A program made the translations under genes and the position numbers. DNA of 64,000 nt from Climacium dendroides (lineage: Eukaryota > Streptophyta > Bryopsida > Hypnales > Climaciaceae). The notes beneath the pieces were generated by a model. The model did no database searches. It saw nothing but the letters and a program-made list of their open reading frames with translations, and was not told where the DNA came from. Position 1 is the stretch's first letter; each line of letters starts with the position of its first letter. Location: positions 13,458,047-13,522,046 of the forward strand of contig OX467087.1 in assembly GCA_950106755.1 (NCBI GenBank), given 5' to 3'. This document shows positions 6,907-37,474 of the stretch, in pieces.

Positions 6907-9027
6907 AGGCCTTAGTCGACTACTGGACTCTTGCCCTCGTCCCCATGAACAAGAAGGTCAAGGATAACCTGCCACTGACTTTGACAGAGATAGTCCGGGA
7001 GGTTACTACTGGACCAAATGGTCTGATCTTCGTATGCTGCAAGACGACGGATCCAGACTAGACTGACGAGTACGTCTTCTCATACGTAGTCAACAGTCGG
7101 AAGATATCATTCTCTGTGTCCGCATACTATAGGACATTATAAAATATGGACTACCAGGAGCTGCAGAAGGATATTGAGTTGCACTTGAAGGCGAATTGGT
7201 AGAAGGCAAAGGATGGGGGGCCACTATAGTCAGTTACGCCAGCATCCAGGGTGAATGCCCTCATCAAGGGATTTGACCACATGAAGCTGTCATTGGAAAA
7301 TAAATCTCAGCGAATGAAGCCAATTATCCTTATCAAAGATTACAACAATCAGAGTGGAAGCCAAGGATCTTTCGTCATGGCCACTCCTGAGATTGGGAAA
7401 AGCTACACAAGCATGAAACAGATGGAGCGATTCAGTCGTGGTGATCCATTAAGGATGCCACACACGGCTCCACAAACTCGAAGCAAGAAGAAATCGGGCA
7501 AGAACTTGTTGGTTCCCGAAAATAGCCTAGTCTCGGAGATTGTGGACATTCCTCAGGACCTTGGCGACAACGTGAAGGAAATTGACTACAAGGAGGCATG
7601 CCGATTATATTCTAAATACTAGTTTGCGTGGACAAATTTGTACATTCCCATAATAGTATCAAAATTTGAGATTTCAATAGAGCAATTAGAGAAGCCGCCT
7701 CAAAACCTTAACATCTGTGAGATGGAAGAGCAGGGTGTGATGATTCTCTTAACTTCCTTTTGAATATGCTAGACCCAGAGAAGAAGATGATACTCTGCAC
7801 ATATCCCTAGGCAGTGACAAGGAAGCCAAAGGAGTTCGCGGAAGTGCAAGCACGAAAATTCTAGATGGTCAATGGGCAGCATTGCGTAACGGCCTCAAAA
7901 AAAATTCAGGAGATGTCCGGCATCCTCAAAGGCACTAAAGGCGAAATTCAAGATGTGGGAATGCTTCATCGTTTGGAACAAGGATGATAGTATCATCTGG
8001 AAAATCTCGACATACTATAATCGCGTCAATCATTTCCAAAATTTCATGCCAACGTGGGCGACCAACATTCTTGTGTCCAGGTACGTCTAGACAAGCATGG
8101 GGAGTCCAACACCACCAAGAGAGCCCATGGAGTTGGGGAAGATGGTCTCCACTGGAAAGAAGTCGAAGATTGATGGAAGCAATTAGAGGCTACTCGTAGT
8201 AATTGCAGCTACTTTAACTTGATTCGAGTTAACATAGATAGGATTTAGTGTTGTCTATTGATATCCACAATTTATCTCACATCAAGTAAAGGTTTTGTAG
8301 TGACCTAACTGATTCTATCGCATTGATTCTGTAGGAATTCAAGACTGCCATCAAGCTGAGGTTCTCAATGATCAACATCAAAAAGAATCAAGGCTTCTTG
8401 GGGAAGAAGAATCAGAGAGACATTGACATCCAAAATGAGATCAAGCTCACAACGGCTTCTCAGGACGTTTATGATCTCTGGGCTGAAGTCATATCTAGCC
8501 AGTTCCAAGGGGAACTCATTGATCCGGATTCCTTAATGAAGTTCAGGGACTGTAAGGGCTGGAACTCAGTCAAGGATGGTGTCATGCTCTGAGAGTTCTT
8601 CAAGTGGATTGGCAACATCACTGAGAAGGACCTCAAGAGACTTGCCCTGCATTTGTTGAACAGGATGCCTTGACGGACATACGGGTACCCGAAGGTTACC
8701 ATAAAGGCCCCAAAGTCAATGCTCCTTGATTGCTACACTACTAAGGACTGGCTGGAGAGGACAAAGAGGAAAGATGCTATCCAGATCCAACTTCACCACT
8801 TGGATCCGAAACTAAAACTATTTGATAACGAAGGGAATTCTAGGAAGAAGGCTTAGAAGGACTTTAAGTGTGCATACAACATCAACAAGGCCACCAAGAT
8901 TCCAAGAATACACTCCTGACAAGGCCGGGGGAGACCTTCTTCAACCACTCCAAATTGCCCGCCAACAAGAAGAAGACCCTTGAGGAACTCTCTCCCATCG
9001 CAAAAGAGTTCTTTAAGGTCTTCTTGG
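6907..9027 (+). pseudogene. Copy B, part 1 (5' half, up to the hAT#1 insertion)
   Basis: A frame can be followed from about 6907 to 7763 through five in-frame stops (four TAG, one TAA), most at places where Gln fits. A second block (about 7780-8078) reads in two frames and ends at a good donor (CAG|GTACGT). A third exon begins after TTCTGTAG at about 8335 and runs to the hAT#1 site; its stops are two TGA and one TAG, plus one frameshift near 8925. The final in-frame residues EFFKVFL continue in register on the far side of hAT#1 at 32748. The product is not recognised; composition is that of an ordinary charged globular protein. The last 8 bases (9020-9027) are the target duplication. Confidence 0.5.
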
Positions 9028-9440
9028 CAGGGTTGTACGGACGCTGGGACGCCCGGACGTCCAATGTCTGCGTCCGCGGGTTTTTGAGCGTCCGGGGACA
9101 TAGAAATTTCGGATTCGCGTCCGTCCAGTGGACGGGCAGTCGGACGATTCAGTGAGCCGACCGAGCGGTCGGACGGCGCAGACGGGGCCGACCGAGCGGA
9201 CGGACACGGAGCACGAGGCGAACGGAGCCGACCGAGCGGATGGACGAGGCGGACGGATGGGGCGGACGGGGCTGGCTGATTGGGTGGCCCGTTCGACCGG
9301 TCGGCAGTCCGATCGGACGGCCAATCGGACGGACCCGACGGGGCGCCCGATCGGCCGTCCGCCAGGGCGGACGGGATGGCCGTCCGCCTCATACAAAAGA
9401 GGCGGTCGGGCCGTCCGCCTCTCACTTTTACCTTCCCCCT
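9028..9440. repeat. GC-rich left terminal region of hAT#1
   Basis: Dense in CGGACG, GTCGGCC and related words, standing out sharply from the AT-rich surroundings. The outer part is similar to the inverted right end of hAT#2 (shared pattern GCGTCCGC..GGTT..GACATAG). Probably subterminal transposase-binding repeats. Long ORFs here in several frames are by-products of the base composition. The region also lies directly upstream of the kinase-like gene and may serve as its promoter. Confidence 0.7.
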
Positions 9441-9570
9441 TGCTTGCAAGAGAGAGCGGAGAAGCTTAGTGCCTTTGGGCCCTATTGTTTCCTCTCCTCA
9501 GGAGGGTAAAGGTGAAATCTTGGGGGGACCCTTGCCATTTTTTTTCTCGAATCGTGCGACATTCATCAAG

Positions 9571-11065
9571 ATGCCAAGGGCGAAGAAGAAAACGAAGTTT
9601 GTGGAGGAATCTACTGAGGCCGACATCATGGACAACCCCTCGCACACTTGTACCGCATTTTTGAGAAAATGCATTGTTGAATTCTATGAGAGAAACTACC
9701 ATGTCTCTTGACTCTAAGTATATTCGTTATCAAGAGGAGGGCATTGAGAAGTTCAAAGGCGATATAAAGGACATGATGCATGAAGCGTTGCGGGTGGGAG
9801 GGTGGTATCAAGAAATGGAAAAGAAGAATTTCACTAGTTGGTTGGACAAACGGGCGCATGATGCACTATGGAATGCGAAAGGGACCGTCGAAAAATTTGG
9901 TAAGGTTCATCGCATTGATGATGAAGCCTTCACGCACGTGATTACAAAAGTGGACATGTTCGTGAGTCGGATGAGACCATTTGCTTCAAGACGAAATAGA
10001 GGTGGATTTATGAGTTGGTGGACAACTCATGAAGGGAGAGTAAACATGCGAGTTGTATTTTGCCATTTAATAGCGCTCCCAGGAACCGCAAGGGTGATTC
10101 CACAAGATAATATTGTCCTACGCGGAGGCTATGCCACAATTCGTAGGGTGCGAATCGAAGGGTGCCCTGAACTTCAACCACATTGGGAATTTGCAGCAAA
10201 GATGTCTCTCCAAGAGGGTCGACGACCTGAGCTTGCAAAGATGGAACACCAAACTGAATCGATGGCGGTGCGGATTCCGCACGATGGAGTCATACGCTTC
10301 GTTGCAGTCCACACAAATCGGAACGAAGGCTATTCATTGTGGTGGAATGGTGGTACTTTGCGTGAAATGTTGAGAATGGATAACGATTATCAGGACAATA
10401 TCGCCATACGCATTATGTGTGACCCCAAAATTAGCGACGAGGAGGTCATTCGTGCTCATTGTCTAAAGCGATGGAGAGCAAAGCGTACGGAGCTTGCTTG
10501 GGCACTGCTGCATATTATGAATGCGGTACATGGTGCCGGACATCTTCACAACGACATTTCTCCAGACAACATCATGTTCCATTTCTCGGAAGACAAGTCA
10601 CAGGTTTTCATTGGAATTTGCGATTGGGGGATGACCACAACTAGTACAGAGCCCATGAAGTCATTGTATACATTCACATCAACAAGTGATTGGGACGAAG
10701 TTCTGAGGAGGAGGTGGTGGATCGATCCAAAGATTACATACGTACATCGAAGAGATGCAGATGTGGAGAACATACCCGTACTTACCATTAAGTCCGAAGA
10801 ATTTGCTGTTGGTCAAATAGCGAAGAGAATCAACAGTACATGTATGTCAGAGACATACTACGGTTTGCAAGGTTGTGGAAGCAAAAAACATGTGTTGTAC
10901 TTGCATCACGACTTAGCACAAGTCTTTCAAGTGTATTTGGAGAGACTTTGCGAAGATGGTCCCGATGGCCATAGTAGTTTGACGCAAGTGATTTCGCGAT
11001 TTACTTCTTCGTTTCATTGGCCTATACCGGATGAACACTTCCGCCACTTTGGAGCTGTAGTTTAA
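9571..11065 (+). pseudogene. Protein-kinase-like gene carried by hAT#1
   Basis: The likely start is the ATG at 9571 (MPRAKKK...), which runs 47 codons; the long frame of 463 codons is in another register from 9674, so one small frameshift near 9700-9712 is inferred. In the long frame there is a glycine-rich loop (RGGYATIRR, residues 151-158), a VAIK-type lysine (FAAKMS, K176), a catalytic loop HNDISPDN (H292, D294, N299) and DWG (317-319) in place of DFG. These are the core elements of a eukaryotic protein kinase fold, and the key Lys, Asp and Asn are present. The N-terminal 130 residues are not recognised. Apart from the frameshift the gene has no stop, unlike its neighbours in the element. 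The substrate is unknown. An alternative is a pseudokinase. Confidence 0.7.
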
Positions 11066-11245: not shown

Positions 11246-14200
11246 TGTGGGAATCCGGGATCCGGAAACGGATCAATAATACAAGAAGTAGGTGCGGAAA
11301 ATAGAAAAAAATCAAAAAAATTTAGTTAGAGCGTGATTCTTTTGACCAGATAGCTTGAATTAGGAAATAAGCGTTCCGGCACAACCCGTAACTGGAACTT
11401 ATCCAGATCCGGAATCCAGACTCACCCGGAACACAGGAACCTACCGTATAGGTCTCGTAGCTATGGAAGTAGGATACCGTTAATACAATGGACCTGTAGC
11501 CGTTGTCCTTAAACCCGTAAAAAGACGGTTTAGTATTTAAGCTGTCTTCCTAGGGTTTTCCTCTTCACTTTTCTGTTCTGTGCTTCTGAGACTGTCTGTG
11601 TGAGTAGTTGAGAGAAAGAGTGGTGAGTTAGCGACTGAAGTAGAGCTACTTTTCTCTTGTTCTGACTTAGATCTTATGGCATCCGGACTAGTACGGAAGG
11701 TAGCGGTATTTGCCCGGGTTATTTCTCCGGCCATTCTGGATAACTCGGAACTACACAAGCAGTTAGAAGAGGACTTAACTAAGTTAGGATGTGTTGGTCT
11801 ACTACACCGACCATGGAACCTCAAGAGCGAAGATATGATTCAAGAGTTGCTCCACGGTGTTCCGAATTAGTATGAGCTCACTTTGAGAGGGCGGCTAGTC
11901 GCGTGGACCGAGGACATCTGAGCGGACGTCTATCAGTTCCAGAAGAGTGGGAACGGGTTAGCATCGAGGACGGACCGTTTTGTAGCTGGAAAGTTCACTG
12001 GGTCTGCAAACCCTAAGGACGGATTCGCTATCAGTGAATGCAAGGACGAGAGACATAGGCGGATACTAGAGTTTCTAATTCCGATCTTGTATCCGGAAAA
12101 GCCAACATGGGTTACCATTACGGTGGCCAATACTATTTTGGGGGCTATGGAGAATCGGATAGTGCACTAGGGTAGGGTCATAGCTGGGATAGTGGCTAAA
12201 TTAGCGGATCACGTGACCCGAGCAAAGGCGAGTCCAGTTAGCACCTACTTGTTTCATCTGTACCATCAACAGGAACTTTTGAATGCAGCTGAAGTGATCT
12301 AGTATGACACCGGAAAGGCGATCCTATCATACGGACTTTCCGGGGAGGAGGCGGAAGATCCGGTCGAGTCTGATCCGGAGGAACTTCCCGAGGAACGTCT
12401 GACCGATCCGAGGACCAAGAAGAGGAAGTCAACCGATCCGGGGTCGCGATCCAAGCCACAGACAATGGAGAGGGGGGAGTCCAGCAAGGGACTTGAAATG
12501 GAAACGGAATCCGCATTTTTCAATGCGGGGCTCGAGTGGATACGTGAAGCCAATGTACTCCACGACGGTCTGTTGGATTTGGTGATAGATACCGCAGAAG
12601 TTTTGAAGGTGGAGCCGGATCAGATCGTGGAAGTTGTTAAGCGATTGCCCAAGCTGGAAGATATAGCGAAGAAGGAGGAGCGGATCCAGGAGTTGGAGGC
12701 GGAACAGAACCAACTCCAGGCCCGAGTGAATTGGGCGGAAGGGGAAATGGCAGCTGCAAAAGAGAAAGAGAAAGAGGCTCTCGCTCTGGTCAAGAATCTA
12801 TCCGGAGCAGTCAACATCAAGGCCGACATCATCACAAAAGCTACCTTGTTTGACTCGAAGATGATATCGGAAGGCCACATTACCGGAACTAAGGTAGTAA
12901 CCATCCTCGTAGACTTCACTGTGAGGATAGAACGAGTTTTGAAGGAGATCCAGCAGTTATTGGTGGCTATCAATCCAAACCATGCGATGGATTTCTCCAC
13001 CTTTCCGGAACTTCCTTTTGTCTCAAGTACCCCAGGGAAACCAGTGGCGGATCATGCAACCCGGATGGAGGGATTGAGGGGGATACTCACACCAGCCGAG
13101 CCTTCCGCCAGCAAAATGCGGATGACGGAGTTGAATTTGAGGCCAGCTTCGGAACCGGAACCTGAGTCTAGCGCGAAATCGGTTCCGGTGCCATCCAAAT
13201 TCTCAACCCCGGAAGTCCCCAAGTCCCAAACAATGCCGAACTTGATGACCGGATCATTCAAGGTTCCGGGACAGCAAGTTAGGGGAGATCTCATCAACCG
13301 GATTGGTGGAATGACCAATCCGGCTCGGACTAATCCGAAAAAATTTGTGTACATGCAAGAGACCACGTCGGAGAAAATAAGCGAACCCACAACATTGGAG
13401 GATACAACGCCAAAGAAGGAGAAGGAAATTCAAGTCATCGAAGATTCTGAGGAGGAGAGTGCCCACTCCACTTCCGGAACCGAAGACGACAGTGATCTGT
13501 CTCCCGCAACGCGCCATATCCAGACTCGGGCCATAGCAAAAACCACGCCAACAAAGAATACGAAGGGGACGCCTACCAACCAAGCGAGGAGCCGTTCAAG
13601 GAAAGGACGGAAGCCAAAACATTAGAATTCGTAGGAGAAGAAGTATAGAATCCGGATCCAGTTTCTGAGTATGGACCCGGTTTCCGGAATCTGAGGCGAA
13701 TAGACAGGAAATCCGGCAATCTAGGACGGTAGTTAGTAATCTTTCCAGATATCCCGGGGTTTTCAGTGATTGGTTGCTTGGATTTCCGTGTTTCCTTTTT
13801 AGGCTTTTAGGAGTTGACTTTGGGTTTTTGTGTTAGTATTTTAAGGGCAGGCAAATTAGTTGTCTGTCATTCCATTCTACTCCATTCCGTTTTAGTGCTT
13901 TCACGTATGTATTACAATTCTCTTTTCTTAATCTAAGTCAGTTAGAATACCTCTAGCTGCACTTTTGCTTAGACAGGGTCTTTTGGCTGAGTGTATGCAT
14001 GTGTGTGTAACCTTGTACTGGAGAAAGAGAAGGGAGGGAGAGGAGGAATCCGAATCTTGGGCTACTGATCTCTTGGTGTTGAGCTGAGTGGGAGGAATGC
14101 GGACTGAGTAAGGGAGTGTAAGTATGACGTGCTTTTAAATTGCCGGAACGGCAATCCGGGTAAGAAGGTAGAGGGCCCTGCGAGTCCAGAACCAGGAGGG

Positions 14201-14802
14201 TTCTGTGCGGAGATAAGCAACCGCCAAAGGAAAGGAACTCTCGCTACTCCGGAAAGTCCACCAACCTTCTCCTTGGTACATTGTCTTCCCCTTAAGACTC
14301 TATTCCTTTGGGTCTATGAGTTCGGATCCGTCGTTGTAGTAAAGAGAGGTGTGAGAATTTCTTTGTGTGACTTGCTTCCGGATCGGCCAATCCGGAAACT
14401 GTAAAAGAATACTCCTCCCTCCTCCTACAGCGGTGTTGTCTTGGGTGTATTGTTTAGTAGATTTAGAGTATAGAGAGGATAATTGCACAAGTGGTGAGTC
14501 CCCACCCCTTTCTAGATCAAGGGCGGACCCTCTAAGGGTAAAACAGAGGCAACAAAAACTAGTGACGGAAGAGAGACGGAACTTAGTTCCGGAGGTATCC
14601 AGATCCGGAATGGAATCCGGAATGTACTAAGTTTCCGGAATAAAGTAGGGAAGTGAAAGAAGGGGGATTAAGTGAGTAATCCCAATCCGGATGCTTCTAA
14701 CTCAATCGATATCTTACTAGAAGTTCCCTGGAACGATAATTCGTGTCATCTTGCAACCATTTGTCGTTGTAAGGATACTTACGGCTAACTACGCGTACGA
14801 CA
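11246..14802 (+). repeat. 5' long terminal repeat, 3,557 bp
   Basis: The left border is set by TGAAT|TGTGGG and the right border by ACGACA followed by the primer-binding site. The length is unusual: most plant LTRs are 0.3-2 kb. It contains a long broken ORF (11676-13625). The border call rests on the target duplication and on the abrupt start of the CCGGA-rich sequence, because the 3' LTR keeps only its last 238 bp for comparison. Confidence 0.75.
11676..13625 (+). pseudogene. LTR-encoded protein, transposon-type with coiled coil
   Basis: One frame of 650 codons holds four in-frame stops: TAG ending at 11870, TGA near 11920, TAG near 12168 and TAG near 12301. The intact last part (12465-13625, 386 codons) has a coiled coil (about residues 65-110 of that part, LEDIAKKEERIQELEAEQ), then a Ser/Pro/Glu-rich region, an acidic block and a basic tail (RSRSRKGRKPKH). 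The upstream part (YLFHLYHQQELL and neighbours) resembles the extra, non-pol proteins often annotated as 'putative plant transposon protein', from memory only. It lies wholly within the 5' LTR. Role unknown. Confidence 0.6.
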
Positions 14803-14965
14803 CTTTTGGCGCTGCTGCCAGGGAACTACTGAAAAAGAAAAAAACTATCGATAGAGTAGAAGATTGGAAAAGGTAGTTTAGGACAGTAAGCTAGGACTCA
14901 GTCATTCGCCGGATTGTATACTAAGTGAATGAGGGTCCAGTGAACGAGAATCTGATTCTAACTTC

Positions 14966-15769
14966 ATGAGTAGGCCTCAAAGAAGAAATACAGCTTTACG
15001 TCGGACGGAACGTCAAGAGGAAGAAAATAGGCGAATAGTGGTGCATGGGTTACCAGCGTCACAGTCTGCAGAGGATCTGGTTATAATTCCTCTTAGGTCG
15101 GAAGTACTTCCGGAACGTTCCCAAAGCCCTAAAGCGGTTGAGGAACCAGAAGCGGAACCTGTTACCTCTGAAGAGGAACGATTCTCTGACAAACCAGATA
15201 CCATGGTGACCACCACGCGTCTACGTTACAGTAGGTTCCGGGGAGACGGTAGTAAGGATGTAGATGATTGGATAGGGGAATTTGAAGCTACTACTGTAGC
15301 TAATCAAGAAGATGCCGCTTCCAGACAGAGAATTTTTCAGGGACTACTAAAAGGTGAAGCCCTTAGATGGTATCAGGATGTTCCGGAAGGTACCTGGAAC
15401 AACTGGGACCGTCTGACGGAACTCTTCCTGCGGACCTTTAGAGAAGTAGGAGGAGAAGCTAGAGCTTTGGGGAGACTTAGTAAAGTCTCTATGAGAACCA
15501 ACGAGTCGGTCCGAAAATATGGTCAGAGGGTGAAAGACCTGATAAAAAAACTAACCACGGATGTAGTCCCGAGTATACAAGTGGAATGGTATGTGGCAGG
15601 TTTTCCGGAGGAGATGGGTTTTCAGATCCGACAATCCCGACCTGCAACGCTAAGAGAAGCCATGGAGTCAGCCCAAAATTACGAGAACTCAGCTCAATCG
15701 CTACGACGATCCATTAAGAAGAGCGAGAAAAGAAAGAAAGGGAAGAGCAAAAAGTACGAGAAAAGATGA
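14966..15769 (+). CDS. gag: Gag protein of the LTR retrotransposon (matrix/capsid part)
   Basis: A 267-residue frame. Residues about 75-215 match the retrotransposon gag domain of plant Ty3/gypsy elements (RYSRFRGDGSKDVDDWIGEFE, then GEALRWYQDVP and FLRTFREVGG). The N-terminus is charged; the C-terminus is very Lys/Arg/Ser-rich. It starts 160 bp after the primer-binding site. Its stop overlaps the start of the next ORF as ATGA (15766-15769). Gag forms the particle in which reverse transcription occurs. This element has lost pol and could only move with enzymes supplied in trans. Confidence 0.8.
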   Translation: MSRPQRRNTALRRTERQEEENRRIVVHGLPASQSAEDLVIIPLRSEVLPERSQSPKAVEEPEAEPVTSEEERFSDKPDTMVTTTRLRYSRFRGDGSKDVDDWIGEFEATTVANQEDAASRQRIFQGLLKGEALRWYQDVPEGTWNNWDRLTELFLRTFREVGGEARALGRLSKVSMRTNESVRKYGQRVKDLIKKLTTDVVPSIQVEWYVAGFPEEMGFQIRQSRPATLREAMESAQNYENSAQSLRRSIKKSEKRKKGKSKKYEKR

Positions 15770-16314
15770 AGCGAAGAGGGAGGTATTCGGATTCCGAAAC
15801 CTCGAGTTCCGGAACCGGATCGGACGAGTCATCCGACAGCGCCGACAGTTCGGATAGTGAGGCAGAGACTTCTAGCAGCAGACAAGTGGCGCAAGGAAAA
15901 AACGAGAAGGTTAACAGAAGAACCGTCAAGGTGAAGGTGGAGGAGGACGATTCTAAGAAACTTATGAAGAGCATCCAAGAATATTTAGAGGCAATCAAGG
16001 TCAACCTAGCTGATAATCGGATGCCTCGACGGATTGTACCGACTTCCCGAGCTAATGTATGGTGCGCAAGGTGTGGAAGACCCGGTCATTATGCAAGCGA
16101 ATGCCCCCAGGGACATCAGAAGCAGATCCATTTTGTGGATGAAGAAGGAGTGTACTACACACTTCCGAAACCGGAAGGGTGTGAAGATCCGGTGAATCCA
16201 GTATTCCAGATCCAAACCGGATACGGAAGAGAGACGGAACTTAGTTCCGGAGGTATCCGGATCCGGAATGGAATCCGGAATGTACTAAGTTTTCGGAATA
16301 AAGTAGGGAAGTGA
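15766..16314 (+). CDS. Gag C-terminal part with CCHC zinc knuckle
   Basis: Starts with the ATG of the ATGA overlap with the preceding gag frame. A Ser/Asp/Glu-rich stretch (residues 8-45) is followed by a CCHC knuckle (CARCGRPGHYASEC, CX2CX4HX4C, near residue 100) typical of nucleocapsid. The natural gag is usually one protein, so this is either a 1-base frameshift or reinitiation at ATGA. The frame runs into the retained LTR piece after about 16222; the last 30 codons are therefore LTR sequence created by the deletion. Confidence 0.75.
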   Translation: MKRRGRYSDSETSSSGTGSDESSDSADSSDSEAETSSSRQVAQGKNEKVNRRTVKVKVEEDDSKKLMKSIQEYLEAIKVNLADNRMPRRIVPTSRANVWCARCGRPGHYASECPQGHQKQIHFVDEEGVYYTLPKPEGCEDPVNPVFQIQTGYGRETELSSGGIRIRNGIRNVLSFRNKVGK

Positions 16315-16460
16315 AAGAAGGGGGATTAAGTGAGTAATCCCAATCCGGATGCTTCTAACTCAATCGATATCTTACTAGAAGTTCCCTGGAACGATAATTC
16401 GTGTCATCTTGCAACCATTTGTCGTTGTAAGGATACTTACGGCTAACTACGCGTACGACA
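16223..16460 (+). repeat. Remnant of the 3' LTR (238 bp)
   Basis: Matches 14565-14802 over its full length with two transitions. It ends ACGACA and is followed by the TGAAT duplication. Confidence 0.9.
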
Positions 16461-16465
16461 TGAAT

Positions 16466-17948: not shown

Positions 17949-19139
17949 TCATTCAGAATCAAAACTACTATCATGATTTTGACTTTGAGGCGTAGAACCG
18001 GAGCCACCATATGGTCCATATCTGCTTGATTGTCGCCCTTGTCCATAATTTTCGTAATAAGGACCTCCAAAAGTTGGAGGTGGAACTGAAGCATATTCAT
18101 GTGAGCCTCCAGTCCCTCCATGACTTGAACCAGTGTAGTAAGAACTTCCATGAGGCCCATACAAATCATGTCCTCCTGTTCCCGGATAATTTCGCGAGCC
18201 GCCTTGTTCCGAACCACCATAGTCTGTATAACTGGTGTTTCCATGAGGTCCCCTTGTTCCTGGATAATATTGAGGGCCGCCATGTGAAAGACCTCCGTAG
18301 CCCGTATAGGTCGTAGTTCTATAGCCTCCTTCTACGTTTGGACCACCATCTCGAGGGTTGTTGCTATAGTGTGAACTACTTCCTCCATGTCGCGAGCCAT
18401 GTACATCACGTTCATGACAAGGTGAAGTGTGATATCCACGAGGTCGGCCTTGATCCTCGACACTCCTCCTCAATGCTTCCCGCATTTGATTCTCGTATTC
18501 TATGTCTTTGCGTTCTTCTCAGCGTTCGTGCCTCTCCGGAGGTGGAGGTGGCAACTGTTCAGTTGGTTCTTCATCATCGTCAGCATCACTGTCCTCTGCA
18601 TCCCGCATAGGCCAACTTGGGCACCCAAATTGACCTTGGTTCGACCAAGCCGGCATGCAATCACTTTCGCCACGCTAGTTAGTGAATACTACAGCTGAGT
18701 GACACGTCATCTTCGTCTCTTTATTCATCCCTATAACTGTACACCAGTCAACGTCTTTTTGGAGTACAATCTCCGCCCAAACCATTGCCATGGTAGAATA
18801 GTTCATGATGGTAGGCTTCGAGGGACCTAGATTTGAAACTGCTCAAATTTCTTCGTATCTCTCTACAAAGTGTCTACTCGTATACGTCTTCATAGGGCCT
18901 TCCCACCGTCTCACTTGCTTCTCCAAACTATCATTTGCTGGCCACAGTTTGGCTATGTGTGACATGGTCACATATTTCTTGCACATTGTACAAGTCCACA
19001 CTTTGTCGAACTCGTACTCCCACCCCTCCTTTGCCACATTGAATTCATCGAAGTAAACATCCCAATCTAGTTCTTGTGGTTTCCCCTTCGAACTTTTCTT
19101 CGAAGAATCGGAAAGAAACGGAATTCCTTTGCGAGGCAT
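17949..19139 (-). pseudogene. Gly/Tyr-rich protein with a shared N-terminal domain (hAT#1 cargo)
   Basis: Start chosen at the ATG 19139-19137 (MPRKGIPF), about 200 bp downstream of a TATA box. One frame of 397 codons runs to 17949 with three internal stops: TGA at 18843-18845, TAG near 18679 and TGA near 18520, at places where Arg (CGA) or Gln/Trp would fit. Residues 15-130 form a domain with CKKYVTMSHIAKLWP and MNYSTMAMVWAEIVLQKDVDW; closely similar segments occur in the RING gene of the same element. The C-terminal 170 residues are low-complexity, rich in Gly, Tyr, Ser and Pro (prion-like). The domain is not one I recognise. Function unknown. Confidence 0.6.
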
Positions 19140-19239
19140 AGTACCCTTCTCTATAAATGACCTCAACGTTAGAATGATTAATGTGTAGTGGTTTCAGATT
19201 ATAATAATTAGTGAATACCACTCATTCATTCACAATTGT

Positions 19240-22370: not shown

Positions 22371-22618
22371 CGGTCGGCCGATCCGCGCGGTCGAACAGTC
22401 CGTTGCGGACCATCGGTCGGCCCCGTCCGGCGCGGTCGGCCCATCATCGTGGTCCGACAGTCCGTTGTGGACCATCGGTCGGCCCTGTCCGGCGCAGTTG
22501 GCCCATCCGCGCGGTCCGACAGTTCGCTGCAGACCATCGGTCGGCCCTGTCCAGCGCGGTCGTCCCATTTGCGCGGTAGGACAGTCCGTTGCGAACCATC
22601 GGTCGGCCCCGTTCGCTT
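22371..22618. repeat. 62-bp minisatellite, four copies
   Basis: Four successive 62-bp units, each holding GTCGGCC, then GCGCGGT, CAGTCCGTTGCGGACC and ATCGGTCGGCC. The word GTCCGTTGCGGAC in each unit is itself a small palindrome. Degenerate units continue to about 22760. Possibly transposase-binding subterminal repeats, or the end of a nested hAT element. A run of 15 C follows at 22787-22801. Confidence 0.85.
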
Positions 22619-23201
22619 CGGTCACCGGTCGGACCGTCGTTAAACCTGCGGTAGGCCCGGTCGGTCAGTCCGCGGCCCCTGCCTCTCTTCTCTTTCTCTC
22701 GTGGACAGTCCGCTACGGACCTGCGGTCGGCCCATCTGCGGCCTTCCACGCGGTCGGAGAGTCTGCTGCAGTGTTGCCGTTGTACACCCCCCCCCCCCCC
22801 CGCCATTCCGCCAACCACGATCTTCAATTTTGTAATTTGGTATTTATAGATTTCAGTTTCTATGCAAGCTTTCTTTTTGAGGTTCATTATTTCTAACGCT
22901 TCCCAAGAAATTATCTGATTTATTTGTTTTGTACATGGAGAATGAATAACCAAAATACATGCAGTGAAGACTTCTTCAATTTCCTATTCAACTATTCAAC
23001 CAAAGATAATGAATAAAAAAGGTTTATTACATTTTTCAAAATAAACACGCAAATTCCTATTATAGAGCAATGCGTGTCAAATGTCAAACCTCATTTCTCC
23101 TGCGTTCATAAAGTCTTCCAAATTCAAATCATAAAGATTTGAAGAACTATCTATGTAACGTATTCTAATCTAACCCGTTCTAAGAATGTAAGATTCAATT
23201 C
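22619..23201. other. Spacer downstream of the hAT transposase
   Basis: Remnant GC-rich units to about 22760, a poly-C run, then AT-rich DNA that would be the 3' end of the minus-strand transposase transcript. No gene seen. Confidence 0.4.
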
Positions 23202-26200
23202 CTAAGGATGATAATCACTATCTCCTTTTACCTCTGCCCCACTACTATAGTCTCTTGATATCCATCCGTCGTCTTCATCGTCGAAAGTATTGTTTTCATC
23301 ATCTGATGAAGCCAATACTTTTTCTTTCTCTTTTCCTTTGATTTCCGTAGATGTAGAAGCTTTCTTCCCCTTGCCTATGTTTGGATCATCCTTCCTCCGT
23401 AAGAAATTCTTACCGAGGATGCGTTCTCGAAGACCGCCGGCCAATCGTCCTTTCCTTGTGGGAAGAGTTGGAAGGGATAGTCGTGTATCCAAGGGGGTTC
23501 TTCCTCCATGTACTTTCTTCCTTGGGGAGATAGAAAATGGCTCCATCACTCGTTTCTTCTTAGGTTTAGCGGATTCTTCTACCATTGCTTCTTTTGCCTG
23601 TTGCCTCTGTTGGCAAACGACCGCTGTTATTTCATTCAGAGATCGCAGTTTCATGTCCTCTAGTCTTTGAGAACATTGTGGTGGGCGACTTGCTATGCTC
23701 TTGAACATTGATTCCAATGTCTCATCTTCCCCATCACTAGTACACTCTAAACTAGTGAATTTCCGCTTCATAGTTTCTTCTTGAATGTTGGAAGCTTGCA
23801 ATGTAGGTAGAAAACTCGCTGAACCCCCCAGAGTAGTACTACCATTTCCACCGTTCAACAATGAGCGTGGAGCGGGTGGAGGATCGTTATTCGTTGGACG
23901 TTGCGACCTCTGCATGTTGTCATTTCTGCCTTGGCCATTGTGGACCATGTTCGGACTTCTGCACTCTTTCGAACCTGAATCCCCCTTGTCCAATACCTCT
24001 AGCGGCTTAAGGCTTAGGGAGCTCAGTCCCTCGATGCTCTTATCAACCAATTTTTCTCCAAATTCGAAGCTTGTTTTGTCCGCATTCATTTTCTCCCAAG
24101 AATGTAGTTTGTCATTTTCTCTAGGTTGGCCTAATGGTATGGATGGAGACCTTTCATGTTCAATCACTTCCTTTGCTTGTAAAGTTTGACCTCTTGTAAC
24201 TGATATCCCGTTCTAAACTGCCTTTTCCACAATGGTGTCTTCCTTGTTTGCCAAAACGGTATGGCTGTTTAGAAGTCGGCTCCCATCTACAAATCTCGCT
24301 ATAAAAGGTAGATCTTCGTCTTCTAAAAATTCAAATTCATCTTGGTTATTTGTACCCAAGTCAATCATGTCATCATCATACTCATTTCGTCTTTGTGACG
24401 GTCTACCACGAAAAGCGTACGTGTCCTCGTTCAAATCCTCTTCTTCATCGAATTTGAGGTTGTCATCACTTGTTTCTGGTTCCAATTCCGATTCTCCTCT
24501 GTCGTCATTGACCTCCTCATTTCCACGCCATGGAAGATGTTCTTCCTCGACATCATGATCACTACTTTCGTCATCCTCCATAAGCCCCTCGAATTCCTCT
24601 GACTCCGCATTCTCGCGGTATCACATCTTCTCATCGTTCTCCTTTGAAGCAGCGAGGACTCTGGAATTGGTATACACATACACCAAATCCATGGCTCTCA
24701 TTGTTTTCAACTTGTTTCGAGCCTTATTATGAACAAAGGAATAGCTACTCCAATTTCGCTCGCATGAAGAGGAAGAGACCGATTGCCCTAAAATTCTCCT
24801 TGCAATCGGAGCAATGAGCTTTCTACAAACACCTTCAAAATCCCACCAAGCATGTGCCAATAATTTGGACTCGCTTGGGTTCAGCATATTGTGAAAAGGC
24901 GGTTCTTTATGTCGAAAAGCCATGAATTCTTTCACGACGTCAGCGTACTCTCCACGCTTACAAATTCGCATGAGGACACACTTGCATGCGTCAATCGCCT
25001 CACCATTGTCTGCTAGTTCTTTGTCGTGAAGCAAGTAGGGATTTAGAAGAGCTCCTGCATATTGAATATCGGTCTCCACGATTTCCCATCGCTCTTGGAA
25101 TGCTGCCCTCAATGGCTTTGCAAGTTCCGAACTTAGTTTAAAAGGCGAATTCTCCAAATCCACCACGTGCTTCCGTATTTTCCTCATGATATGCAAAACC
25201 TTGCCTGTGCATGGCGTCTTTGCATCTAAATCACGTAGGCCATGTACCACGGGGTCCAGCAACTGAACGAAATTGGTGCAACGCCTCCAAAAGTGGTCAT
25301 CGTTAATTATCTTTGTCGCATTTGTAGACTGCTCGCCACCATTCTTCTTCTTCCTCAATGTCCTCACATATTTTCGCCAACGAGGGTCTGTTACACACTG
25401 TTTTAAAGCACCCTTTACCTTCAACAATCGGTGAAGCGCCATGTAATTGGAGGAAAATCTTGTTTCCCCCGACATCAACAAGCTGTACTCTTTCTCGTAA
25501 CTCCAGAATATTGCAAGTGGCATGTGTCGCTTTCTAAAGAACTTAAGAACCGCTCGGGCGTCTGTTACTACCGTCTCCACCCATGTTTCCTTTACCCAAT
25601 CTTTGAGCAACAAATTTAAGGCGTGAACTACACAACCTTGGAAAAAAATGTAAGGATATTTGTCGGTTATAATCTCACATGCTCTGGGATTCAGAGGAGC
25701 ATTGTCCGTTGTTATTTGCACCACATTTTGAGGCCCCACCTTCTGTATGAATTCATCCAAAATAGAAGCCAAGTACTCTGCATTCTTTTCATGTCCACTT
25801 GTGTCCACTGATCCCAGAAATTGCTCCCCTGCGGAAGATACAAGCATGACATTTACCAATGGCCGATTCGTAACCGAGGACCACCCGTCAATAGACAATG
25901 TTGCACCAAACTTTCAGATACTATCCTCGGTCCTCTTATGCAACTTCACCTCAAGATCTGCCTTTGCTTCGTCTAGCAATTTAGTTCGTAGAGCTTGATA
26001 CGATGGAGGACTATATGGCCTTTTGAAGTCAGCCATTCTCATGACGGCTTCTTTGAATGCTGCAGTTCGAGCTACCGCGAATGGTATGTTTGCCGAATAG
26101 AAGACCTTAGCCCACAACATATTCAACTTCCGTCTTTCAGCTTCTTCAAATCCATCTGCTAATCGGCTTTGTTTTTGAGGCCTAGTTACAGAAGAAGGTG

Positions 26201-26597
26201 TAGGTCGTTGGTCACTTGATGTTTGGGCACTAGGAATCACCCTTGAAGTTGAAAGAGTTGCTTGTTCCGGTGCTGTGCACGAGTCTTCTTGTGTTGAACA
26301 TGGCGACTCCCTTCCATTTGAGGTATTGCCTAGAACCATCAGTGCGTTCCGACCATCTATATTTTCAATGATTGATTTGGATGGAAACATCCCATCACAA
26401 CGAAGGAAAAGAGACTTGACATCCGATGTCAATCGTGGACATAGGCTTATTCCTGAGTCGTGCCTGCCATTTTTGCCTTCGTATCCCAAGTGGCTCAACA
26501 TGCGACATTTCCGATTTATGAACTCCAACCCACATGCCTTACACTTCACTTTGCCGGGGGATGGAATGGTATACCAAAGATGAGAATTTGTACTCAT
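23202..26597 (-). pseudogene. hAT transposase with long acidic C-terminal extension, three nonsense codons
   Basis: A single frame of 1,132 codons from ATG 26597-26595. In order: BED-type zinc finger (VKCKACGLEF..MLSHLGY, residues about 10-55), a Ser/Thr/Pro linker, a DUF659 RNase-H-like region (LSIDGWSSVTNRPLVNVML, then ITTDNAPLNPRA), and the hAT dimerisation motif (SSSCERNWSSYSFVHNKARNKL). A roughly 450-residue extension follows, rich in Asp, Glu, Ser and Lys, ending SSGAEVKGDSDYHP. Stops: TGA at 25916-25914, TGA at 24623-24621, TAG at 24215-24213. All keep frame and fit C-to-T or G-to-A change. The closing tail is conserved in hAT#2, so the extension belongs to the protein. The transposase would cut and rejoin element ends. 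This copy is probably inactive. Confidence 0.88.
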
Positions 26598-26929: not shown

Positions 26930-27150
26930 GAGTACAACGGTCGTGAGAAATCAGCAGACGGTGCCGACCGCGTGGTGTGGGTGGACGGGGCCGATCGACG
27001 AAAAGGTCCGACTGAGCGGACGGGGCCGACCGCGCGGTCTGGGCGGACGGGGCCGACCAACCCAAGGGGGCCGACCGACCCCACAGGCCGGCCGACCTCA
27101 AAGGGCCGACCAACCCCAGAGGGCCGACTGACCCCACAGGGCCGAGCAAG
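26930..27150 (-). promoter_or_regulatory. GC-rich island upstream of the transposase gene
   Basis: A block of GGGCCGACC and GGACGG repeats, 330 to 550 bp upstream of the transposase ATG. By analogy with the islands before the Gly/Tyr-rich and RING genes it may be the promoter. No clear TATA box was found. Confidence 0.45.
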
Positions 27151-27522
27151 CAAATGAGGCATAACATTGAGTCTGAAATAGAACATATTGAATTGAATTC
27201 AAACAATGAAATAAATAAATAAATGAAAAAATAGACATATTCTTCAATTTATATGCCAAAAAAAAACTATATATATAAAGAAAGAGAGAGAATACAAAAT
27301 ATGTATATATAGATATACATGTAAAGTGAAGGAAATCAAAACATACTTTTGTAGCATACACCTATGATTTGATGTACATTATGAAGAAGCTATGATGAAC
27401 GCGATAGCCTAAGTACAATAATTTTTGGTAGAGAAAACTACTAATTAAAGTCCCCACAAGCTATTTATTTTCTACTAGTACTAATATAATAGATGTAGAG
27501 TAGGAAACGAAACATTTCCCTA
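27151..27522. other. AT-rich spacer
   Basis: No gene. It separates the transposase promoter island from the 3' end of the RING gene. Confidence 0.5.
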
Positions 27523-30500
27523 TTAGTTTTCAGTACTACTATCTTCTTCTGCAACATGAGATGTCCCCTCCTTCGCCATGAGTCTTCTGCTTTTGCGACA
27601 AGGTATCACCTCACCACCACTAGATCCTTCTCCAGTTTGTACTTCCATGTCAACCCTCTCAAATAGTCTTTTAGTTTTTGGAGAGTGGTCATCCTCTTCT
27701 TCAACTCTCCGTTTATTCTTCCGCTTCGGAGACAACTCCACTTCATGGGTGTTTAAAGTCCTCAGAGCGGCATCTACTAAGTCTTCGAGGTACTGGATGA
27801 CTTTATCTTTGCTCTGCACGTAATACCAAGCTGGTACACCTTTATAAGCTATTGGAGGTTCACCCCCTAGATACTTCCTCTACTTGGTGATAACATCATC
27901 CATCCGTTTATCGAAAGCCCGAGCAATCTCTTCCATCTTATGCCCTGTCATTGCTTTCGTGTTCAAGTCCAACATGCAACAAACCTTAGCTGCTTCTTCC
28001 AACTTCGCTAAGATGCGGGCCCGCCCGACCAAATCGGAATTGTATCCCTCGTACTACTTTGTGACTCTAGGATCAGACTCCACTTCCACAAAAGGGTCAT
28101 TTGGCCCTTCTTTCTTCCATTCCTTATCAGGAAATCGGAAGAATTTTTGGTGCTGCGTGCTCCAGTGCCCCCCCATGCTACGACAAAACATTTCTCTTGC
28201 ATCGTTATCCGGGATCCTGAAGGCATGCAATTCCACTTCCAAGTCCCGCGTCATCCAAAAGTACTCATCCTTGTCTTGAGGATCCATGTATAATGAATGC
28301 ATCCCTTCGTTTGGTAGCCATACCATTGGTTTTCCCCAATGCAAATGATTTTGGAATTTGTGTGGCGCTTGGTCTAGTGGAAGGTTCCACCAGTTGAATT
28401 CATGACCCGATGCCATAGAATGCAATATTCCTAGCATTTCATAAAACCTTGCATTCAAAGGAGTACGACAGTTGGGGCAACGGGCGGAATATTGTGCTGC
28501 TCTTTGGATGCAAAGAATATGAAAAGAGTGGCCACATTGACCCAAAGTTAGACCTCCTTCAAGCCCAAAACGATATTGGCAAAGAGAACACTTTTCCTTC
28601 ATCAAAGAAACATTGGGATCACTTCCAGGTATAAGCTGCTTCTCATGTTGAACAATATGAGCAGACAATGTGTTGTGAGGAACCCATCCTTCTTCCGCTT
28701 CCAACGCCCAATTGATGTTGTCTGATTTATAGGTTCTCCCGTGATTCAACCGCTCGAACATTCTATCCATGTTTCCCCAAACTGTAATGCACACTTTGGG
28801 ATCCTTTAATTCTGCGTCCAACTTCTCTTTCAAACGCAGGTGAGAAGACTGCACGTTGCTCAACGATTCGTCCGACTGCATTGCATACTTCAAGAGCCCC
28901 CTCATGAGTTGAGAGCATAAACTGAATTGTTGTTGTAGCACTAGAAGAAAAAGCAGGGTTTTGCGACTACAGTTTGCGACTGGTTTGTAGTCGTATCGGA
29001 CGTTTGCGACTTGGTGATATTCTGGAGTCCGCAGTCGCAGTGGACAAGTCGCATGAGTTGCACTGCAGTCGTGAGGTAGTTTGTCATTCGATAGGCAATG
29101 GAGAACTTCATCGATGAACTACTGTGACGTGGTTGCTGATGTGGAAGTTATTTCACTTATTTGTGTGCAACTGGTTTGCGATTGACATACAACTGGTGTG
29201 CAACTAGTTTGCGATTGATGTGCAACTCGTTTGCGACTAGTGTGCAACTAGTTTGCGATTGATGTGCAACTCGTTTGCAATTAGTGTGCAACTGGTTTGC
29301 GATTGACATACAACTAGTTTGCAACTAGTTTGCGACTTGGTTATAATTTATAGAGTTATAGATTATAGAAATCTACAAAGTGTAAAAATCTACACAGTGT
29401 AAAAATCTACAAAATATATAAATATTAGAATTTCACTATCAAAATTCATTACACAAGAATGCTATAACTTACCATTCTTATCTGTTCAAGTTGATGGTAT
29501 TCTTGACAATCGATATGGGACAATTGAATCGATTTTCAGTCATGTTCTAGTTGCATTGCACTTGTTCTCTAGTTGCATTTGAATCGTTTTTTAGTTGCAC
29601 TGTAGTCGGGCTCTAGTTGCATTATAGTTGATTCCTAGTTGCATTTGAGTCATTTCTAAGTTGCAATCTTCTAGTTTTTAGTTGCAACCTGTAATTAGAG
29701 CGATTGCATTTTTCCACGGTGGACTCTACTTCGTGGATAGCTGTCCACATGGACAACTGCGATAAATGCTAGATGTAGAATACCTCATGTCAGTTCTTCT
29801 GTTACAATATCGTAACCCTATTCTTCATTTTCTGACTACTTTGCGACTACAACTACATACACGTGAAATTTGGTGCAAATACAGAGGGCTACAGTCGCAT
29901 CTCAGTTGTATAGGACACATAGTCGCATCTCAGTGGGTTGCAACGGACACGTTTTTCTTCTAGTGTAGGTGCCTTGCCCACAGCACCCACCGTAGATCCC
30001 CGGTCTTCATTGGAAGGATATCGTATAGTATTTGTATGTGTTCCATTCTCTGCAGTGAAGACTCCGCGTCATTCTTTGCTTGAATTGCCAAGTCCAATTG
30101 TTGCCTTAATTCTTGGACTTCATGATTCACCGTTTGCGTGCAAGCAACTTCTAATGAGAGTGGAGGCACAACTTTAGGGCTCTCAATGGCCATAACGACT
30201 TCTACAGTCTTGTCCACAGCTTTGCCCTTGTCAAGAGGAAGCGAAAGTTGATCGCTTTCTTGAGTTGGTTGACTTGCCTCCAAGAGGCTTGCTCCGTCCT
30301 TGCAATATTCAGATGACTTGTCGTTTTGTAATGTCTTCAACATCTCCCGATGCCATTGTAAATTGTCCTCAGATGTCTTCAATTGCAAAACCAACTTCTG
30401 GTTTTGGGACTCCAACGTCCCATTTGAGAGCTTTAAAGTCTCAACTTCTTTTTGAAGACTAAAACACATATCTTTCAAGGCTTTATGGTCTTTATCCCAG

Positions 30501-32194
30501 AACACCATAGAGCAATGCTTATCCAATTTGTCGAACTTGACCTTCAGGCGATCATGATCTTCTTTGTCATAATTGACCTTCATGAGCTCCTCGTTTTGTG
30601 TTTGAAGCTCAACCATAGCCTTGAGATTTTCCACCTTCTCTTCTTGGAGCTTATCTGCAAATTCAATGAATTTTCTGAAGGCCACGGCACCCTCCAGTAT
30701 CTCTGGTGTCATGCTCATAAATTCTTCAGCTATTTGTATGAGGGCAGGTGTCATAACAGCTACAAGTTTAGTTGTACATGATAGAGAGTAGGTAGTCTTG
30801 AACAGTTCGCCGAACTTCCATACTCGGTTGCACGGGGTTGAGGTTTGCCCTTCATCTATCGTGCCTCCTTCATTTGTTGTACCCTCTTCATTTGCAGAAG
30901 GATGAACTTCTTCATGAACTTCAAAAGTCTTCCATTTAAGAGAACATTGTAGTAAGTGCTCTATTTCTTGTAGCGGAGGCATCATCGATAAAGTCTTTAG
31001 ATCCTCTGGACCCAAGAACGCTAGGATTGGATTCTCCTCCATCTTTGGGGTCTCTTCGCCATTGTTAAGAACGCCTGGTTCCCGAGAGTCCATTTCTGCC
31101 TTCTGTAGGTTCTCATCATTCATATTTTGGGAAGGTGGCATTTCATGCATTGGACTCCGAACTGGACTTGTACTTCTATTAATTTCTTCATCTGTAGTCC
31201 TGGTACTGATGTCCATAAGGGCATCACTATCTAGAAGACGAGTGATTCTAGCAATTGCCCTGTCCATCTCTTCTGAGGGAATCTCTTCTTTGCACTTCAA
31301 CGTCGATCCTTGTTTTGATGGATGAGATGGCACCTTGAAAATACCAGGTTCTCCCTTCGCGCTTGATGCAATTGGTAAAGGGCTCAGAAACATCGGTAGA
31401 GTATCAAGCACGACTCGTTCTACACCCTTCGAAGAAGACGCTAAAGCTTTTGTAGTATTACATACGGTATCCGGTTCTAGCGTCATACTTCCTCCTCCAT
31501 TACCTTCTGTATTTTCCACTTCGGGTTGAAGTGAAATGTCAGCTTGATTCGTAAGATCTGCTGATGTGGCATTCATTTTGCTACTTTCAAGGGGGCACTC
31601 CTCCTTGTTTTCCCCTTTGTCTTTCATGTTCTGCACTTCGTTTTGAATAGAAACATGTTTTTCTTCCGTGTTGTGCTATAGAGTAGCATTGCCTTCAACC
31701 ATTTGAAAAAGTTGTCCCTTTGAAACAAACGTATCGGGAATATCTTTCTGGCCATCAGGAAGCACAAACAGTGTTTCTACTGTCCCGGGGTACGTACTCC
31801 AATCCACCTTGCAAGCCAACTTCAATTCTGTATACACCATGCTTGCTATGGTGTAGTTAATTCTACCCTTGCTCATCGATTTGTCCCCGAAGAGAGCCCG
31901 CCACACCTCTACGGAACGATGGACAAAATGAGGGCTGAGACAACTTGCGGGTTTAAAAGAAAACTCTCGAGTGTGACCAGCATGTAATTCTTCAGGCCAC
32001 AACTTCCCAATGTGATACATCTTCACATATTTCTTGCACAACTTGGAAGTCCAGTATTCATCGACCACCTTCTCCCACTCAGGCTCTACTAAAATGTTCT
32101 CCTCCTTTAAAATGTCAAGACGGAGCTCGTGACGAGCTCCTTTTTGTTTCGATCTCTTGCTACTTTCACCTTTAATGCCGCCCTTTTCTTCCAT
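27523..32194 (-). pseudogene. Large coiled-coil RING-H2 protein gene (hAT#1 cargo), split by a CACTA element
   Basis: Start ATG 32194-32192. Removing the CACTA element and one 3-bp duplication leaves one frame of about 1,213 codons to 27523, broken only by three TAG codons (31678-31676, 28056-28054, 27882-27880). Residues about 35-130 are the domain shared with the Gly/Tyr-rich gene (CKKYVKMYHIGKLWP; INYTIASMVYTELKLACKVDW). A Ser/Glu-rich region follows, then a long coiled coil (about 507-630). A RING-H2 finger lies at about 859-899: CSLC, CGHSFHILC and CPNC give C-X2-C...C-X-H-X2-H-X2-C...C-X2-C. The C-terminus is basic then acidic, with a possible nuclear signal (KRKNKRR). RING-H2 proteins are usually E3 ubiquitin ligases; the target is unknown. 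The function in the transposon is inferred, not shown. Confidence 0.75.
28939..29965 (+). mobile_element. CACTA-type non-autonomous element, copy 2 (1,027 bp)
   Basis: Starts CACTAGAAGAAAAAGC and ends GTTTTTCTTCTAGTG. Flanked by TAG (28936-28938 and 29966-29968). Very similar to copy 1, with fewer internal subterminal repeat units. It is inserted in the coding sequence of the RING gene: the minus-strand codon CTA (Leu) is duplicated, and the frame continues as LQQQFS after the element. Confidence 0.92.
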
Positions 32195-32396
32195 AGCTAC
32201 TTGATGCCTTGATTCTTCTCTTCAACCGTGTGTAAATGACTAATTCAAAATCCCTCCGGTGTAATCAAAGATATATGACCCCAACTCTCTACCACATAGG
32301 AGCAACTGGCGCGGTGAGGCAACAGTAGCACATTCAATGTGGTATTGTTTCCCAAGGAGGAGAATTGAAGTGAGGAAAAATGCCTTGGCCGTCCCC

Positions 32397-32747
32397 TCAT
32401 ATAGCCGTCTGCGCCCAAACCTAAAACTTGTCTTCCCGAATCTACCCCGGACGACGCGAACCTACCCCGAACCTGCGGACGGCGTTCGATCGGACGGTCC
32501 GTCCGCTCCTGAACCTGCGGACTGGCGGTCCGCCTGACCGCTCCGTCGGTCGCCCTCCCAACCGCTCCGTCGGACACCCGACCGACCGCTGCGACGTCAC
32601 ACCCGACCGCTCCCACGACCATCCGACCAACCGTTGGACGCCGACCGACCACAGTCCAGCCGCGTCCATGACGCCTGGACGATGGACGTCCGGACGTCCG
32701 GATTTTGGACGCGATTTTGTGATGGACGTACGTCCGAGACAACCCTG
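32397..32747 (-). promoter_or_regulatory. GC-rich right end of hAT#1, doubling as promoter of the RING gene
   Basis: The outer 60 bases match the left end of hAT#2 closely (CAGGGTTGTC, GGACGT.CGTCC, CGCGTCC). The inner edge has a TATA-like word (CTATATGA on the minus strand, about 32397-32404), roughly 200 bp before the ATG at 32194. The same inner block (TTTTAGGT..GG..C.GACGG.TATAT) recurs at 37480-37500 in hAT#2 next to the transposase tail. Confidence 0.6.
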
Positions 32748-33469
32748 CTTCTTGGAAAGCAAGGTAAGGTTCGTCAAGCCGGAGGCAATGGCGTTCTACA
32801 AGCCCTACGAACAAAATGACGACAAGCTTGGGGATTGGGATGCTAATGTGTGGGACAATTCTATGAGCTCTGGAATCAAGATGGCGATCATAGACTTCAG
32901 GAACATCCCAAGCATCGTCCACAAGCAGGCAGAACAGATGCTTCCTATTTCGACAAGTTCATGTCCATTCTTGAAGATGATCGGGACACTTAGCTCACCA
33001 ATCCAAAGGTATGACTATGGATAGTAGGAGAAAAGGAGGTCGAGTTAGAGCTCCCAGGGTTTATTAGGACGTCTGAGTTTGGGAAGGCCTACTCCGTGCG
33101 CTACGCGGATTATCTTCCGTTCCATTTTGAGCGCATTGGAGACATCCCAGAGAGGAGAAGTCATACAAAGGATCTGGTCCATCTTCTCTTCCTGGTGAAG
33201 AACGGGGCAGAAATTAAGAATTGCCAAATTCCAGAGAGATTCGATGTCCTTGCGAAATCCCACTACAACACGAGGAGGCAGACCCTTGAGGTGGAATACA
33301 AGATCTATGACACTAAACTGTGAATGGAGTTCTATTTGAGCGTGTTGGACCTGTTTTTGTCGCCAAGGGACAAAGTGCTCACATTTTTTGTGGGAAGAAA
33401 AGCTATATGTGCTGCATGGGTAAATCGATTTTTTAGATGATTTTATATAGAGGTCCATAGGAATTGTCT

Positions 33470-37163: not shown

Positions 37164-37196
37164 TTCTTGATTCAAATCCTTTCTAAATTTGAATGC

Positions 37197-37465: not shown

Positions 37466-37474
37466 TAGGCCAAT

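Follow-up and report, generated by a model that had tools for sequence, protein, structure and literature searches.

Elements of the hAT type are usually regarded as small, one-gene parasites, and a locus in the moss Climacium dendroides raises the question of how much more than a transposase such an element can own. The locus lies in a window of 64,000 nucleotides (contig OX467087.1 of assembly GCA_950106755.1, positions 13,458,047 to 13,522,046 of the forward strand). There the original prediction placed a 23.7-kb hAT transposon, here called E1, that holds a protein-kinase-like gene, a Gly/Tyr-rich (GY) gene and a RING-H2 gene in addition to its transposase. Are these three genes chance neighbors, captured passengers, or parts of the element? 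E1 is very probably a decayed copy of a multi-copy hAT family whose members, about 17 kb in subfamily A or 20 kb in subfamily B, insert as one unit with a four-gene set. The E1 family is a new multi-gene variant of hAT.

E1 occupies positions 9028-32747 (23,720 bp) between exact 8-bp target-site duplications, CTTCTTGG, at 9020..9027 on the left and 32748..32755 on the right. Its inverted ends, CAGGGTTGT, lie at 9028-9036 on the plus strand and 32739-32747 on the minus strand. Read as CAGGGTTG, they match the hAT-type YAGNGNNG, as do the ends of most siblings, a few of which have one end base changed. The left, kinase-side terminus (9028..9430, plus strand) joins the CAGGGTTGT end to an array of 16 CGGACG/CGTCCG motifs, doubles as the 5' flank of the kinase gene, and is found at about 40 places in the genome. 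The right, RING-side terminus (32440..32747, minus strand) ends in ACAACCCTG and also has a motif array. When the flanks are joined across the empty site they form a 142-codon open frame, FFKVFL-ESKVRF, which bears out the host reading frame expected there. Insertion as one unit between two distinct ends is well supported. The predicted borders, duplications, ends and transposase all hold, and only the size has to be revised: E1 spans 23.7 kb because a long terminal repeat (LTR) retrotransposon remnant and a CACTA-type miniature inverted-repeat transposable element (MITE) are nested inside it. Without both, it measures 17,478 bp.

The two inserts are foreign to the hAT element, and comparing E1 with a sibling copy identifies them as later insertions. 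The LTR remnant (11246..16460, plus strand; 5,215 bp) has TG...CA borders, a 5-bp duplication TGAAT, and matches to Retrotrans_gag and a zinc knuckle. The MITE (28939..29965; 1,027 bp) has CACTAG ends and a 3-bp duplication TAG, and sits within the RING gene. The sibling, at C2:3869467-3886286 (16,820 bp), contains neither insert and also lacks two short E1 stretches, of about 470 bp near 21.2 kb and about 250 bp near 22.0 kb. It is flanked on both sides by CACTTTTT (8 bp, exact), aligns with E1 from end to end at 91-95% in five main blocks, and carries the four genes in identical order.

How general is this arrangement? The whole assembly (412.6 Mb, 123 contigs) was searched, and only the best candidates were scored per query, so copy counts are lower bounds. 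The left-end query gave 48 rows, of which 40 were used for linkage after six second pieces and two tiny matches were dropped, and the right-end query gave 41 rows from 40 scored candidates. With the kinase there were 94 rows (85 used; five at 63-64% identity and four partial ones at 83% dropped), and with GY 126 (105 used, of which 91 reach at least 78%, 13 stay under 66% and one stands at 69%; 21 second-part rows dropped). The 41 transposase rows all span the full 1,131 residues, at 92-100%. Eighteen left ends have a scored transposase within 40 kb, and right ends were read for E1, the C2 copy and 13 others. The predicted right end has an 8-bp duplication in each of these 13 further copies (12 exact, one with one mismatch), which measure 16,693-17,084 bp. 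Counting the C2 copy, the ends therefore pair around the whole gene set in 14 of 14 siblings, 13 of them with exact duplications.

The genes themselves recur just as regularly. Kinase sequence follows the left end at all 30 fetched loci, E1 included: in one piece over 410 residues at 23 of them and over 399 at one, in two pieces at three, and at the remaining three only as partial matches, of 118 and 214 residues and, at 74% identity, of 55. All 13 elements tested for it contain a RING-finger stretch; 12 of them preserve the C3H2C3 ligand spacing, and two have stops in the part read. GY is scored in 12 of the 13 further copies, the C15 copy having none among the matches listed. Taken gene by gene, a same-strand GY lies within 30 kb of 39 of the 41 transposases (36 at 3.2-4.2 kb, three at 18-29 kb), a GY in the expected orientation lies within 12 kb of 34 of the 40 left ends, and a convergent GY is found no more than 12 kb from 73 of the 85 kinases, the distance being 1.5-2.5 kb in 70 cases. 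Other copies with the same genes in the same order, on which the idea of a new class had been made to depend, thus exist. Copies reduced to a transposase are not the rule among them, and no terminal repeats around single genes were found among the tested copies.

These data bear directly on the possibility that the 23.7-kb block is a chance meeting of several smaller elements that each have ends of their own. The LTR element and the MITE are indeed nested in E1, and GC-rich repeats occur inside it as well as at its ends, which is what such a composite would call for; yet the C2 copy, free of both inserts, is still collinear over 16,820 bp, and in all 14 siblings the 8-bp duplications surround the whole unit. 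Of the three exact CAGGGTTGT sites in the window, two are the ends of E1 and one is the left end of E2, a second element. No exact site occurs inside E1, and the four one-mismatch sites there fall within genes or the MITE, the window total for such sites (14) being near the 12.1 expected by chance. A composite origin is already refuted for the tested copies, and as an account of E1 it is highly improbable.

All the predicted genes lie within the borders. From the left, E1 holds the kinase-like gene (9571..11065, plus strand), the GY gene (17951..19139, minus strand; 396 codons), the hAT transposase gene (23202..26597, minus strand; 1,131 codons) and the RING-H2 gene (27523..32194, minus strand), whose 1,213 codons exclude the MITE. 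All four are damaged. The kinase has a frame break near 9687, near its N-terminus, and the other three have three in-frame stops each (at 25916, 24623 and 24215 in the transposase and at 18845, 18677 and 18521 in GY). The transposase and RING stops number six; relatives share one residue at three of these sites, R (11/11), W (11/11) and W (8/8), and vary at the other three. Changes from R and W to stop would fit decay by C-to-T and G-to-A mutation.

The transposase matches DUF659 (1.2e-31) and Dimer_Tnp_hAT (1.6e-5) in Pfam, and precomputed Pfam results for its relatives likewise give hAT domains (DUF659 and C-terminal dimerization). Residues D237, D298 and E614, which we take to be the hAT catalytic triad, are invariant in an alignment with 15 relatives. 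At the N-terminus, a CxxC...H stretch is largely conserved among the aligned relatives, and E1 itself has no Pfam zf-BED match. The protein ends in a long extension of about 450 residues, which is variable apart from a SSGAEVKGDSDY-like tail; most relatives that reach the tail retain it. In the window, this tail occurs at 23204-23240 and 37200-37240, both on the minus strand, and it persists while the remaining extension diverges.

As for the extra proteins, Pfam Pkinase is found in 26 of 27 aligned kinase members, E1's own score falling under the curated cut-off. The invariant residues include N288/D289 and D312-W313-G314, presumably the kinase motifs. A structural model of the kinase, with a predicted local distance difference test score (pLDDT) of 83.6, resembles kinase folds in the PDB with a best E-value of 1.4e-9, where the query TM-score is a modest 0.41. 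The RING family has zf-RING_2 in nine of nine relatives. Two of the non-transposase genes had been said to share a domain, and they do: the N-terminal 115 or so residues of GY match the N-terminus of the RING family, with a best E-value of 4e-16.

Could an ordinary hAT element have taken up host genes at random and then amplified, with the three genes as roleless passengers? Such events occur, since a fungal hAT captured and amplified histone H3 (PMC6710886). In the present case, one argument against it comes from a second subfamily. A full subfamily B element lies at C2:20843041-20863148 (20,108 bp), with the exact duplication GTCGCCTG on both sides and ends homologous to those of subfamily A. 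From its R-type end it carries the transposase (-), RING (-), GY (+) and kinase (+), whereas from the same end subfamily A carries RING, transposase, GY and kinase, in orientations that differ from those of B. In this element the frames of transposase and GY are uninterrupted, that of RING contains one stop, and the kinase match divides between two frames. Protein identity to E1 is 61% for the transposase, 56 and 64% for two parts of the kinase, 53% for GY and 50% for RING. Retention of the same four genes, rearranged, at such distances argues against random capture, as do the domain common to GY and RING and the same kind of 5' array beside the genes.

E2 (35681..42371 with its 8-bp duplications CATGAAAC, the element itself at 35689-42363) lies only 3 kb from E1 and is a deletion derivative of subfamily B. 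It is collinear with B in pieces, namely the R end with the transposase tail, the RING and GY 5' flanks, and the L end, to which a MITE has been added. The left end of E1 is of the same type as the right end of E2, and vice versa, and the transposase tail of E2 runs "backwards" relative to E1 because E2 derives from subfamily B. The 8-bp duplication typical of hAT membership is exact in E1, E2, the C2 copy and the B element. At other B loci, ends were predicted from GY positions. The R-type end aligned from its first base in five of eight windows, and an L-type end appeared in none of the eight predicted L windows, one predicted R window holding it instead. The layout of B accordingly rests on the one full element and E2. 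The assembly has 13 B-type GY genes (59-63% identical to E1), of which 11 are stop-free in the main matched piece, two of these having a stop in the second piece. Since 11 of 13 are without stops in the main piece, subfamily B may be younger or still active.

Relatives in other sequences point the same way. Outside the assembly, 68 kinase, 9 RING and 31 transposase relatives were found over a wide divergence, only the transposase candidates sharing most words being scored. Those with names are two kinase matches in Ceratodon purpureus and one in a Bacilli metagenome-assembled genome, and two distant transposase matches in Miscanthus. In three cases, a transposase relative and a RING or kinase relative lie on foreign contigs of exactly equal length, 17,649 and 27,639 bp (both ENA) and 8,444 bp (JGI). 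A smooth length model predicts about 0.004 such chance pairs among contigs of at least 8 kb and 0.19 when every length is counted, which suggests the same gene linkage on foreign contigs, contig identity being judged from length and source. RING or kinase relatives that apparently stand beside transposase relatives elsewhere again speak against random capture. Viral contigs gave no relative with the kinase sequence or with the kinase, RING and transposase alignments, none of the kinase turned up in prokaryote contigs, and the transposase had no tblastn match in plasmids. Transposase-like stretches (L001-L003) do occur in contigs labelled as a cyanobacterium, Halorubrum and Lachnospiraceae, and are probably eukaryotic contamination of metagenome bins.

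Selection among copies offers less. Ratios of nonsynonymous to synonymous change (dN/dS) between E1 and the C2 copy are 0.51 for the transposase, 0.44 for RING, 0.38 for GY and 0.43 for the kinase, and 0.41 among 23 kinase copies. Strong purifying selection was considered on this basis and is unsupported when the CpG-rich mutation spectrum is taken into account, simulated neutral means under the observed spectrum being 0.64-0.71. As the simulated ranges are wide, dN/dS is weak evidence. The retention of four genes in both subfamilies at 50-64% protein identity is a stronger sign. Random capture can claim the stops in the extra genes of E1 and many copies, as well as these dN/dS values; the transposase, however, has equally many stops and a dN/dS no lower than that of the extra genes. 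Pack-type elements carry captured host fragments that differ among copies. Here the same genes recur copy after copy, and we regard random capture as quite improbable. A set belonging to the element, as the original prediction had it, is supported by this recurrence, and "cargo" is probably the wrong word for it because the genes look like a fixed set.

What might the set do? The CGGACG/CGTCCG motif occurs 69 times in the window, 39 times in E1, 26 in E2 and four elsewhere. Besides the termini, E1 has a 7-motif array in the GY 5' flank (19200..19640, minus strand) and GC-rich repeats with two exact motifs in the transposase 5' flank (26940..27160, minus strand). In the C2 copy, with gene borders rounded for the count, the 600-bp 5' flanks hold 33 motifs (kinase 15, GY 8, transposase 2, RING 8) and the 3' flanks three (kinase 0, GY 0, transposase 1, RING 2). 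In the B element, the 5' flanks hold 52 (transposase 7, RING 11, GY 18, kinase 16) and the 3' flanks 11 (transposase 6, at the R end, RING 5, GY 0, kinase 0), with from 0 to 2 in gene bodies. In subfamily A the ends and the kinase or RING flanks share the outer arrays, and in B each gene has an array separate from the ends. A run of GC-rich 62-bp tandem repeats within E1 (22340..22790) contains only one exact motif.

The three extra proteins may form the element's own regulatory module, a reading that falls somewhat short of an even chance. The element would still transpose by the usual hAT cut-and-paste route. The domain shared by GY and RING would recognize the arrays in the promoters and termini of the element. 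The RING part would attach ubiquitin to the transposase or to a silencing factor of the host, and GY would act at the arrays as a partner without catalytic activity or as a competitor. One of these proteins would be switched by the kinase, the conserved C-terminal tail of the transposase being a candidate target. That kinase, RING ligase and GY partner act in this manner on CGGACG-type arrays, to escape silencing and control transposition, is a proposal we hold more tentatively still. The extra genes could also aid spread in another way, for example through biased inheritance or the suppression of rival elements. Many single copies of them are stop-free, and KC19_VG055000 of Ceratodon purpureus is a member of a 126-sequence cluster of kinase relatives, as this idea would have it; the arrays nevertheless connect the genes with regions that control the element itself, and we consider the idea unlikely.

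Several observations weigh against the picture of a fixed, functional, self-regulating set. The domain shared by GY and RING belongs to no accepted Pfam family. Its zf-C3HC match is sub-threshold and confined to the GY of E1 (E-value 0.0014, with a score of 19.1 bits where the cut-off is 22.2), and a fold search of the PDB, with a model of pLDDT only 66, returned nothing at E-values up to 0.001. Kinship of this domain with the finger-like N-terminal stretch of the transposase was also tried and is unsupported (hhalign probability 0.1). DNA binding by the domain is a guess, because it has neither Pfam family, PDB match nor finger kinship. The transposase 5' array of subfamily A is weak, with its two motifs. 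The C2 copy has three stops in the transposase, one in RING, one in the kinase and none in GY, and dN/dS is not clearly below neutral, only RING (0.44) lying just under its 2.5% bound of 0.45. Finally, two of the 41 transposases, six of the 40 left ends and 12 of the 85 kinases have no GY nearby, and one copy, G000:C40:13796059-13796672 (L081; 613-614 bp), consists of ends alone, with CAAAAAAA on both sides and no gene; deletion derivatives therefore exist.

Other features of the window stand apart from this argument. The CACTA-type MITE is present in three copies (3254-4406, 28939-29965 and 36258-37163), whose main aligned blocks are 85-97% alike. Self-complementary stretches at 5283-5448 and 43005-43154 (95-96%) are possibly foldback MITEs. 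Beside E2, the frame at 35235-35669 matches an NLI-interacting-factor (NIF) phosphatase (2.2e-9). The region 50867-51955 is GC-rich (0.64-0.69), has overlapping long frames on both strands, and holds two of the four motifs found outside E1 and E2. Two of its frames were scanned and gave no Pfam match.

A 17-20-kb family whose transposase is accompanied by a kinase, a RING protein and a further gene, in two subfamilies and apparently also in relatives on foreign contigs, would widen the known capacity of cut-and-paste transposons. Such a family would also make transposon-encoded ubiquitin and phosphorylation signalling directly testable in a plant. If the regulatory reading is true, a eukaryotic DNA transposon would have a multi-protein regulatory system, maintained long enough for two subfamilies to have rearranged it without gene loss. 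There is also a warning for annotation, as what looks like a "gene family" of kinases or RING proteins in a genome of this kind may belong to transposons. A literature search at the level of titles and abstracts, in a partial collection, found no multi-gene plant hAT.

Comparison with known systems places the E1 family more closely. Like the plant hAT elements Ac/Ds and Tam3, it has short ends, 8-bp duplications, DUF659 and dimerization domains, and deletion derivatives with the same ends, as Ds is of Ac. Unlike them, it measures 16.7-20.1 kb, holds four genes and encodes a transposase some 1,130 residues long. A survey of plant hAT elements gives the ends as [T/C]AGNGNNG and the duplications as 4-8 bp; Gulliver, at 7,144 bp, is the longest of its 276 sequences, and Physcomitrella yielded none (PMC6027215). 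The fungal histone H3 hAT also has 8-bp duplications and was amplified together with a non-transposase gene; it is about 9.5 kb long with one captured host gene (in one or two copies), and its amplified copies in P. fijiensis were inactivated by repeat-induced point mutation (PMC6710886). The E1 family differs in having three accessory genes in two subfamilies. ToxhAT/ToxTA is likewise a large gene-carrying DNA transposon, initially called hAT (PMC12506042), whereas members of the E1 family are flanked by 8-bp duplications and encode a hAT transposase of their own. Starships, too, are large gene-bearing eukaryotic transposons, but they use a tyrosine recombinase captain where E1 has a hAT transposase, and no tyrosine recombinase Pfam match was found among the E1 frames scanned.

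A further parallel may be one of regulation. VANDAL elements encode the accessory gene VANC and carry short non-coding motif arrays, often tandem; binding of VANC to the motif and its effect on methylation have been shown experimentally (PMC5735166). VANDALs are Mutator-like elements (MULEs), whereas E1 has hAT ends, a hAT transposase and other accessory proteins, known from sequence alone. None of the E1 frames scanned gave a VANC-like Pfam match. In its logic, the proposed module would nonetheless resemble the anti-silencing of VANC in VANDAL, or TnpA in En/Spm.

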